Assembly: GCF_005925345.1 (NCBI RefSeq)
Contig: NZ_SSHJ01000022.1
Span: 1 to 64,000, forward strand
DNA from: Pedobacter ureilyticus
GTDB taxonomy: Bacteria; Bacteroidota; Bacteroidia; Sphingobacteriales; Sphingobacteriaceae
Direction of reading: 5' to 3'
DNA length: 64,000 nucleotides
Positions 47,173-49,438 of this stretch are shown one piece after another (position 1 is the stretch's first letter; each line of letters begins with the position of its first letter). The translations under genes and the position numbers were made by a program. The notes below the pieces were generated by a model. It saw only the letters and a program-made list of their open reading frames with translations, searched no databases and was not told the origin of the DNA.

Positions 47173-47715
47173 TTACAGATGAGTAACTTCTATTAAACCT
47201 TTTCCGCCACTATAATCAATAGCACTACTGCGCCACTCATGCGGCTCGTTCACAAAACCCGCTACCACTGGATTATAGTGTATGTAGTTAGCTTTTTGCT
47301 CAATTACTTCAACACTCCATAGCTCAATTGGATGATTATCGTGTTGCCAAAATTGATATCCTTTTACGTTACTACTTTTAGCACCTGCTCGTTTGAACAT
47401 CCACAGCATCCACTCTCGCCTACTTTCTTTTGCATTTTCTTGAATAGCTTTCACTATTTGTTTTGAAGTGGGCTCTTTCAACCTGCCCAAAACCATTTGT
47501 GGGCTTTTATCATCTGTTCTAAATATTAAATGTACATGACTAGGCATGATGCACCAACAAAACACCTCCATTCCTAAGTTTTTTCTGCAATAATTAAAAC
47601 TCTCCAATAAAATCTCGCTGTAAATAGGCCGAACGAATACATCAATCCAATTTACTACTGCAAAGCTCACGAAATATAAGCCTTCTTTATTATGAAATTT
47701 ATATTTGCTACTCAT
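47173..47715 (-). CDS. REP-associated tyrosine transposase (RAYT, Y1/IS200-like)
   Basis: A 180-residue Y1 transposase. HUH motif in WCIMPSHVHLIFRTDD; catalytic Tyr in the C-terminal helix region (ANYIHYNPVVAGFV). GYQFWQHDNHPIELWSVEVI is typical of RAYT-group members. RAYTs nick single-stranded REP hairpins and are thought to spread them. The gene is enclosed by REP hairpins in opposite orientation at 47140-47160 and 47754-47774, the expected arrangement. Length is intact, so it may be active. Confidence 0.93.
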   Translation of the reverse strand: MSSKYKFHNKEGLYFVSFAVVNWIDVFVRPIYSEILLESFNYCRKNLGMEVFCWCIMPSHVHLIFRTDDKSPQMVLGRLKEPTSKQIVKAIQENAKESRREWMLWMFKRAGAKSSNVKGYQFWQHDNHPIELWSVEVIEQKANYIHYNPVVAGFVNEPHEWRSSAIDYSGGKGLIEVTHL

Positions 47716-47753
47716 ATTAGATAAATGAATTTACGATTTTCTTTTAATTAAAA

Positions 47754-47774
47754 GCACACGCCAAAGGCGTGCGC
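47754..47774. repeat. REP element 3
   Basis: GCACACGCC, loop AAA, GGCGTGCGC, then TAGCGC. It lies 38 bp upstream of the RAYT start codon and is inverted relative to REP 2. Confidence 0.92.
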
Positions 47775-47866
47775 TAGCGCTGAGAAATTTTAAAAGCGAT
47801 TTACCTAGGCTCAGTAAGTTTTAAAAGTTTCGATTTTTTTTATTTCTATTTTCAACTTTTTTCCTA

Positions 47867-47874
47867 CTTTTGAG
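47867..47874 (+). promoter_or_regulatory. Bacteroidota -7 promoter box (TACTTTTG)
   Basis: TACTTTTG matches TAnnTTTG, 19 bp upstream of a short leader ORF and 139 bp upstream of the MATE gene. Its position predicts a transcribed leader of about 130 nt. Confidence 0.55.
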
Positions 47875-47893
47875 TATCAAAATCTCAACAACC

Positions 47894-47929
47894 ATGAAGT
47901 TTTTTGCAGTCCGCATCAGAATAGCTTAA
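47894..47929 (+). CDS. Candidate 11-residue leader peptide MKFFAVRIRIA
   Basis: An ATG-TAA frame of 11 codons placed just after a promoter box and before a hairpin, ahead of the MATE transporter gene. The peptide contains Arg-Ile-Arg, an R-x-R pattern of the kind at which macrolide-bound ribosomes are known to stall (as in Erm leader peptides). Too short for family recognition; translation is inferred. Confidence 0.45.
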   Translation: MKFFAVRIRIA

Positions 47930-47963
47930 CAAAGCAGGGCTTCTACATCTTAAAACAATTAAT

Positions 47964-47982
47964 GATGCTAGCTTTTAGCATC
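47964..47982 (+). promoter_or_regulatory. Leader hairpin upstream of MATE gene (attenuator candidate)
   Basis: GATGCTA (47964-47970) pairs with TAGCATC (47976-47982) around a 5-nt loop. GCATC inside the leader ORF (47913-47917) can pair instead with GATGC (47964-47968), so two alternative foldings exist. A T-rich stretch follows from 47989, but not immediately, so it is not a classical terminator. Confidence 0.45.
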
Positions 47983-48013
47983 TCATGGTATTTCCTTTTT
48001 ATTATCTTTATAT

Positions 48014-49438
48014 ATGACACAACCTATTGAGGCAAAATCACGTTTGTCTAATTTTTTTAACGTACTTGTACAGGCATTTAAAGGTGCCGAAATCGATTAT
48101 ACTTCCATCAGTATCAGAAAAGCTATTGTACTTTTGGCAATTCCAATGATGTTGGAAATGATTATGGAATCGGTTTTTGTATTGGTAGATCTTTACTTTG
48201 TAGGGCATTTACCTAATAGCGCCGAAGCCATCCAAATTGTAGGCTTAACCGAATCTGTTTTAACTATTATTTACTCTTTAGCTATGGGTTTGGGCATGGC
48301 CGCTACGGCTGTAGTTGCCCGCAGAATTGGCGAAAAAAATACCGAAGCAGCATCAAGAGCTGGTATGCAAACCATTGCTATCGCCGCAACAATAGCTATC
48401 GTAATCAGTATTATAGGTTTAATTTTTGCCAAGGATATTTTATTACTGATGGGCGCTACAGAAAGTACTGCTACAGAAGGAATTACCTTTGTAAGAATAA
48501 TGATGGGTACCAGCATAGCCATCATGTTACTGTTTCTTATTAACGGTATTTTTAGAGGCGCTGGTAACGCAGCTATCGCTATGCAAAGTTTGTTTATAGC
48601 TAATATCATTAACATTACCTTATGCCCTATTTTAATACGTGGCCTAGGCCCAATACCCGCCCTAGGTTTAACCGGCGCTGCTTTGGCTACTGCAATTGGT
48701 CGTAGCACAGGTGTGCTGTATCAAATTTTCCATCTGGCAAGAGGCAGTAACAATTTACAAATGAAGCTGGCTTACCTAAAGCCTCAGACGGCTCAAATTA
48801 AAGCGATCGTCAAAATTGCAGCGCCGGCAGTTTTTCAATTTAGCATTGCTTCTTGTAGTTATATTTTTTTACAAGAATTGGTAGCTACCACCGCCGGGGA
48901 AGTTGGTTCTGCGGGCTTTTTAACTGGGTTGCGGTTAATGATGTTTTTCATTTTACCAGCTTGGGGACTGAGCAATGCAGCCGCCACTTTAGTTGGTCAG
49001 AACATGGGAGCTGGAAGAATGGACAGAGCAGAACAATCTGTATTGGTAACGGTAAAGTATGCTGCAATTTTTATGGCAGTAGTTACTATATTGTTTTTAA
49101 CCTGTGGACACTTATTTGCGTCGTTCTTTACAGAAAACCAAGAAGTTAGGAAGGTAGCCGTTGAAGCTTTAAGGATAATGAGCTACGGATTTGTACTTTA
49201 TGGTGTAGGAATGGTGCTTATAAGTGCATTTAATGGCGCTGGCGATACTTGGACACCCACTAAAATTAACGTGTTTGTATTTTGGTTGTTCCAAATACCT
49301 TTAGCCTACTTCCTCGCTAAATATTTAACAATGGGACCAACGGGTGTATTTATAGCCATTCCAGTAGCCGAAATTGGAATTACTATTGCTGCTTATTTTA
49401 TCTTTAAGAAAGGTAATTGGAAGAAAATAGCGGTTTAA
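48014..49438 (+). CDS. MATE family efflux transporter
   Basis: A 474-residue inner-membrane protein with about 12 helices in two related halves. Typical MATE segments: KAIVLLAIPMMLEMIMESVF, VLVDLYFVGHLPNSAEAIQI, GNAAIAMQSLFIANIINITL, and the second-half WGLSNAAATLVGQNMGAGRM. It exports drugs or metabolites using Na+ or H+ gradients. The substrate is unknown, but the short ORF and hairpin in its leader suggest inducible, possibly antibiotic-sensing, control. Confidence 0.93.
   Translation: MTQPIEAKSRLSNFFNVLVQAFKGAEIDYTSISIRKAIVLLAIPMMLEMIMESVFVLVDLYFVGHLPNSAEAIQIVGLTESVLTIIYSLAMGLGMAATAVVARRIGEKNTEAASRAGMQTIAIAATIAIVISIIGLIFAKDILLLMGATESTATEGITFVRIMMGTSIAIMLLFLINGIFRGAGNAAIAMQSLFIANIINITLCPILIRGLGPIPALGLTGAALATAIGRSTGVLYQIFHLARGSNNLQMKLAYLKPQTAQIKAIVKIAAPAVFQFSIASCSYIFLQELVATTAGEVGSAGFLTGLRLMMFFILPAWGLSNAAATLVGQNMGAGRMDRAEQSVLVTVKYAAIFMAVVTILFLTCGHLFASFFTENQEVRKVAVEALRIMSYGFVLYGVGMVLISAFNGAGDTWTPTKINVFVFWLFQIPLAYFLAKYLTMGPTGVFIAIPVAEIGITIAAYFIFKKGNWKKIAV

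Follow-up and report, generated by a model that had tools for sequence, protein, structure and literature searches.

Arrest leaders of the RLR class are already known, as are leaders located before efflux genes. Ribosomes translating ErmDL (MTHSMRLRFPTLNQ), the leader of ermD, are reported to arrest when Leu7 occupies the P site and Arg8 the A site; the same study states that arrest by telithromycin requires Arg6-Leu7-Arg8, that arrest by erythromycin is much less dependent on Arg, and that any substitution of Ser4 other than Ala or Gly lowers erythromycin arrest (PMC8298421). MefAL (MTASMRLR) is described as the +x+ leader of the streptococcal mefA/msrD efflux operon (PMC10314930). In Bacteroidota, the phylum of Pedobacter, the tetQ attenuator of Bacteroides is a drug-responsive leader classed as translation control; it involves tetracycline and a ribosome-protection gene, and the excerpted source describes no +x+ leader for tetQ (PMC5418344). 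A transcript map of Flavobacterium psychrophilum is reported to contain 64 structured 5' regions (PMC9723704).

Here, we analyzed a 64-kb stretch of Pedobacter ureilyticus DNA (hereafter, the window) that contains a short leader ORF upstream of a gene encoding a drug-efflux transporter of the MATE family. The [RK]x[RK] motif (+x+) of this ORF is shared with ErmDL and MefAL, in which it serves in macrolide/ketolide arrest. Like ErmDL, leaders of this kind have an RLR(F) motif and a small residue three positions before the P-site residue; however, ErmDL controls an erm methyltransferase gene, whereas the Pedobacter leader precedes a transporter gene and its arrest is a prediction. Like MefAL, the Pedobacter leader is short, has a +x+ motif (RLR in MefAL), and is located upstream of an efflux gene. 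In contrast, MefAL acts by ribosome-mediated transcription attenuation of an operon encoding MFS (mefA) and ABC-F (msrD) proteins in streptococci, while the Pedobacter leader precedes a MATE gene, and a simple consensus scan of the + strand from 47894 to 48014 found no terminator-like site. Among the matches listed in literature searches covering titles and abstract openings, neither a leader peptide before a MATE gene nor the Pedobacter leader itself was found. Our best reading of what is new here is a conserved RLR-class leader before a MATE gene in Bacteroidota, a chromosomal variant of this class. We estimate a probability of about 0.6 that the peptide belongs to the +x+ (RLR) class and senses an antibiotic by arrest, in that a drug-bound ribosome would stall on it so that MATE expression rises.

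Leader locus

The locus comprises the following features, all on the + strand.

47865..47872, +: Bacteroidota-type -7 promoter box TAnnTTTG (TACTTTTG), read from the sequence
47891..47897, +: 5' strand of helix P1, ACCATGA, containing the leader start codon; partner at 47983-47989 (RNAfold of the window sequence)
47894..47929, +: leader ORF MKFFAVRIRIA*, 11 codons, ATG to TAA, read from the sequence
47912-47920, +: codons of the +x+ motif Arg7-Ile8-Arg9 of the leader, read from the sequence
47908..47912, +: 5' strand of helix P2, AGTCC, in codons 5-7; partner at 47937-47941, GGGCT (complementarity, alignment)
47924..47927, +: 5' strand of helix P3, GCTT, last codon plus first stop base; partner at 47932-47935, AAGC (complementarity, alignment)
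47932..47941, +: 3' strands of P3 (47932-47935) and P2 (47937-47941), just past the leader stop (complementarity)
47964..47982, +: helix P4, a perfect 7-bp hairpin, GATGCTA (47964-47970) with TAGCATC (47976-47982) (sequence, RNAfold)
47983..47989, +: 3' strand of P1, TCATGGT, 25-31 nt 5' of the MATE start (RNAfold, alignment)
47990..48013, +: segment rich in U and almost devoid of G, leading up to the MATE start (composition over 28 clusters)
48014..49438, +: MATE family efflux transporter, 474 aa, ATG at 48014 (TIGR00797, 248.8 bits vs cutoff of 147.4)

An earlier note on this DNA had described a promoter box, the 11-codon ORF MKFFAVRIRIA, and the hairpin GATGCTA/TAGCATC before the MATE gene, and all three can be read at 47865-48014, the region given in the note beginning at 47867; its observation of a leader ORF with a macrolide-type R-x-R upstream of a transporter extends from the window to relatives. 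We take TAnnTTTG to be the Bacteroidota -7 promoter consensus, on which the naming of the box at 47865-47872 is based, and transcription would accordingly start near 47880. Within the window, +x+ was present in 38 of 327 ATG ORFs of 9-14 codons, the leader being the sole short ORF with this motif that had TAnnTTTG a short way 5'. Given these 38 ORFs, and given that 64 kb of first-order Markov sequence contains on average 0.6 ORFs that combine the motif with the promoter box, the leader is not beyond chance when the window is considered alone. It does stand above chance because it is conserved in relatives, always before the same gene among the fetched loci.

No family scored above its gathering score in an Rfam scan of 47700-48100; the best of two matches, probably due to chance, was to RF03532 on the minus strand at 47740-47955 (23.6 bits vs gathering score of 100). 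A 180-aa transposase-like ORF on the minus strand (47173-47715), by eye resembling REP-associated/IS200-type transposases, is located between a thioesterase-like gene and the MATE promoter, and a GC-rich palindrome occurs nearby, at 47753-47775.

Conservation of the leader

MATE-family matches at E ≤0.001 were obtained in 58 of 59 genomes, including the window's own, many of them representing distant family members. At the 30 best MATE loci (L001, L003-L031), 22 had a leader ORF of the same kind, six had none before the MATE gene (L007, L019, L021, L024, L028, and L030), L031 gave a false ORF only, and L025 was left unscored. Given that several relatives have the MATE gene without the leader, the leader is dispensable. 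A first covariance model, built from 20 leaders, matched 88 of 399 genomes of the same family, 84 of these in the same genus, and the MATE gene was present at all 70 loci that were fetched out of the 88 matches. With a second covariance model, we detected the leader in 107 of 145 Pedobacter genomes, once per genome. Of 395 genomes from across the class, the same model matched five, each of them from this genus; the additional fetched matches sit before MATE in 15 of 15 cases. When named genomes were searched with a DNA pattern for the RLRF/RFRF forms, 53 contigs matched, 52 of them labelled Pedobacter and the other a Sphingobacteriaceae bin, and the pattern began 99-125 nt 5' of the MATE alignment in every one. 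In other genera, the leader was recognized in 8 of 36 MATE upstream regions, many of those MATE genes being distant.

For leader counts, 101 loci were reduced to 84 by dropping seven exact duplicates, six loci without a leader ORF, L002 (a distant MATE paralogue), L025 (no MATE ATG found), L031 (ORF MVILTTY inside the thioesterase gene), and L068 (an RLRF reading without an ATG start). These 84 plus eight leaders from other genera constitute a set of 92, with later-fetched leaders, including L207, L224, and L225, kept outside; given that leaders are related by descent, such counts are not independent. L068, from another genus, combines its RLRF reading with P2-like complementarity, and a GTG or TTG start would yield ...QYAVRLRF.

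The conservation check that the earlier note had proposed held in part: ORF, motif, and hairpin position are kept in relatives, but the exact RIRIA ending occurs in 8 of 92 leaders, all in the window's clade. In 79 of the 84 leaders, the promoter box begins 20-36 nt 5' of the start codon of the leader, and in 1 of 84 a box of this type is located after the leader stop and before the MATE start. This argues against a MATE transcript starting after 47930, the case that the note had considered damaging to its proposal. From this box position, leader and MATE gene would be on one transcript. Relatives in which the leader comes closely after the end of the gene upstream include L022 and L026.

RNA structure

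Covariation backs the four predicted helices P1-P4, P1 modestly. In the alignment of 89 leaders, 88.0% of cells are paired, and sliding the strands by 1-3 columns lowers this to 19-43%. Changes on both sides are seen at 15 of the 19 pairs. By helix, paired cells amount to 79.9% for P1 (alignment A2), 96.3% for P2, with a both-side change at one pair in 42 of 89 sequences, 92.5% for P3, and 84.0% for P4, with both-side changes at all five modelled pairs; pair counts from A2 lean towards the hand-drawn structure, since A2 was fitted to model R1, which was built with it. Of 92 loci supplied to R1, 89 were matched, the exceptions being L173, L175, and L207. In an alignment-free test, own partners were compared with partners exchanged between clusters, and swapped partners did as well in 0/5000 trials for P2, 1/5000 for P3, and 98/5000 for P1, a modest result, whereas the P4 score is biased given that P4 was picked as the best hairpin. 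On alignment A1 (20 leaders), the hand-drawn structure outscores shuffles in three of five measures, namely covariation score and the counts of paired and of covarying cells, while its number of covarying pairs was matched in 179 of 500 shuffles and its pair types in 353 of 500. RNAalifold on A1 gives P2 only, and the best RNAfold structure of the window sequence has P1, P3-like, and P4 pairs with P2 absent.

The switch proposed in the earlier note relied on GCATC in the leader ORF (47913-47917) pairing with GATGC in the first hairpin arm (47964-47968). These segments are indeed complementary in the window, but within the window's clade 3 of 8 leaders have such pairing (at least five Watson-Crick pairs), and elsewhere 1 of 84 does, which rules it out as a conserved switch. 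Instead, the conserved helices expected to be opened by a stalled ribosome are P2 (47908-47912/47937-47941) and P3 (47924-47927/47932-47935), both predicted to pair the +x+ region with bases just past the leader stop, where a ribosome stalled on the motif would sit.

Three further candidate helices were rejected because swapped partners were as good: P5, pairing codons 3-4 with the stretch before P4 (973/5000); P6, pairing AACC past the stop with the 3' strand of P1 (1904/5000); and P2', a GAGG/CCTC hairpin past the stop (970/5000, 21 clusters). Leaders of the AACCGC clade, L022 and L079 among them, may have their start codon inside a short hairpin (by eye, of the TAC-GATGAAA-GTA type; z -4.7).

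Peptide motif and alternative explanations

The +x+ motif is present in 85 of 92 distinct leaders, 77 of these 85 being RxR, compared to the 38 of 327 short ORFs of the window. It occurs in 21 of the 28 sequence clusters that the 92 leaders form, and in 13 of 15 leaders fetched later. Peptide forms include M[IK][VF]xA[VI]R[LF]R[FS], MKFFAVRIRIA, MIVSR[EGA]KFGC, and MIVLKARYVQ, as well as MIVVAT[LR]RIR, MKIAIVPMRF[KR]IRG, MIVSVVRIR, and MKFLVVRTR. A MATE protein tree was inferred from 68 rows (≤6 per cluster) plus 16 without a leader, over ≤220 residues. There, the MIVSR[EGA]KFGC clade (six rows, support 100/95) is nested in a 15-row clade (100/99) with the window's RIRIA leaders, in a tree with 16 rows under half filled and bootstrap values not yet settled. 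The nesting of REKFGC with RIRIA leaders indicates that the peptide was rewritten while +x+ was kept. Seven of the 92 leaders retain the ORF without +x+ (L023, L064, L065, L070, L165, L171, and L175) and represent seven separate tips on the tree, so that the motif looks to have been lost repeatedly; L207, L224, and L225, outside the 92, also have no +x+. A shuffle test over 19 leader types gave 11 of 19, with shuffles averaging 4.51 and reaching that value in 7 of 20000, and a five-register test gave 0.00085; both use hand-picked leader types and are illustrative only. L173 (MKIAIVPMRFKIRG) and L174 (MKIAIVPMRFRIRG) have two overlapping +x+ motifs.

As an alternative explanation, a constitutive uORF or RNA structure could set translation or mRNA stability, the peptide mattering only as part of P2 and P3. 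Both helices do include leader codons, and L023 and L207, judged by eye, retain P2-like complementarity with a different peptide that has no +x+. However, +x+ survives rewriting of the surrounding RNA in the REK, KAR, TLRIR, and RFKIR leaders. Moreover, in the 73 leaders chosen for Arg at codons 7 and 9, codon 9 is AGG in 64, AGA in 8, and CGC, two bases away from AGG, in one, while the third base of codon 7 and codon 8 (Leu, Ile, or Phe) vary and the Arg used for selection stays constant. In L227, RTR is encoded by CGC-ACA-CGC. We consider this alternative unlikely.

The leader could also sense a different ribosome drug, such as a phenicol or oxazolidinone, through a conserved Ala5, with the Arg residues secondary. 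These drugs preferentially arrest ribosomes when the neighbor of the residue in the P site is Ala, Ser, or Thr. Of the 73 leaders, 67 have Ala and 2 have Ser at residue 5, three positions N-terminal to the predicted P-site residue; TLRIR leaders have Ala5-Thr6, and REK leaders carry Ser4. On the other hand, residue 5 is Met, Val, His, or Tyr in the remaining four, Val in MKFLVVRTR, and Arg in the REK clade, with +x+ kept in these four and in MKFLVVRTR. Sensing of such drugs through Ala5 seems quite improbable. Finally, attenuation by arginine supply, in which Arg shortage would slow the Arg codons, stall the ribosome, and control the gene, is very improbable: most leaders do have two Arg codons among 10-11 (RxR in 77 of 92), but these are usually just two, Lys replaces one Arg in REK, KAR, and RFK leaders, the gene encodes an efflux pump rather than a protein of amino-acid metabolism, and the locus has no run of codons for one residue before a biosynthesis gene as in amino-acid biosynthesis attenuators.

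Proposed drug-dependent arrest and its possible regulatory output

Drug-dependent arrest on +x+ remains our preferred reading. The locus has the traits of this class, namely a short ORF before an efflux gene behind a promoter box and a conserved Arg/Lys-x-Arg/Lys. We propose that the leader is translated from 47894 and that, with a macrolide- or ketolide-like drug on the ribosome, presumably a macrolide-like tunnel binder, the ribosome would stall once Ile8 is in the P site and Arg9 has reached the A site, the +x+ pair being hard to join. This stall codon is suggested by ErmDL, and given the analogy to ErmDL and MefAL, arrest of the Pedobacter leader would be expected at codon 8, with P2 and P3 being opened. 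Residue 5, at the place corresponding to Ser4 of ErmDL, is Ala or Ser in 69 of the 73 leaders with Arg at codons 7 and 9. The stalled ribosome would cover ~47902-47930 (an assumed footprint) and hold both helices open, and the freed strands would refold so that MATE expression is probably induced rather than repressed. In the absence of drug, the leader would be read through and P1-P4 would form. The motif ACGGAAAGACCCC, which by its numbering we take to be at the macrolide site of 23S rRNA, was found within the 23S rRNA locus of the same genome, and therefore the site looks unmutated and drug binding plausible; a longer pattern with a different start had no match in the genome in this search. 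Given that erythromycin arrest on ErmDL needs +x+ much less, strict conservation of +x+ does not by itself point to erythromycin.

If true, a MATE pump encoded on the chromosome of environmental Bacteroidota would be subject to drug-specific nascent-chain sensing, and macrolide-like compounds would be suggested as a regular signal for these bacteria. The locus would also provide dozens of natural leader variants, with +x+ and RNA helices mostly constant, and make it testable whether, and by what output, ribosome-stalling control works in Bacteroidota, which are not known to rely on Shine-Dalgarno pairing.

As for the output, P4 has no U-run directly after the hairpin, and together with the scan above, the locus seems to lack the intrinsic terminator of MefAL/MsrDL-type attenuators. 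Sequestration of the MATE start was rejected: in a thermodynamic model of 80 leaders, the mean unpaired probability from -20 to +15 of the MATE start was 0.710 when free and 0.715 with the assumed-footprint mask of a stalled ribosome, so that the start is predicted to be already open and the locus does not resemble a start-sequestering translational attenuator. Given that the mask leaves accessibility the same and that the + strand has no terminator-like site in the scan, no actuator was found. Candidate outputs are termination of the Rho type, an effect on mRNA stability, and a standby site used in MATE initiation; the ribosome may control exposure of either a C-rich tract (Rho-type) or the U-rich region at the MATE start. 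A C-rich, G-poor tract follows P2 in 12 of 28 clusters (one leader each), compared to 4.7% of 18-mers in the window, and speculatively would suit Rho-type control. Only tentatively, we suggest a vertically inherited, genus-wide, antibiotic-sensing arrest leader of Bacteroidota acting on an intrinsic MATE pump, with an output unlike those of known arrest leaders, given that an intrinsic terminator and a hidden start codon both seem to be absent. In the early MATE coding region, a small hairpin at 48029-48050 was observed in the window and relatives, with own partners better than swapped ones (z -5.4), a signal that may reflect coding constraint.
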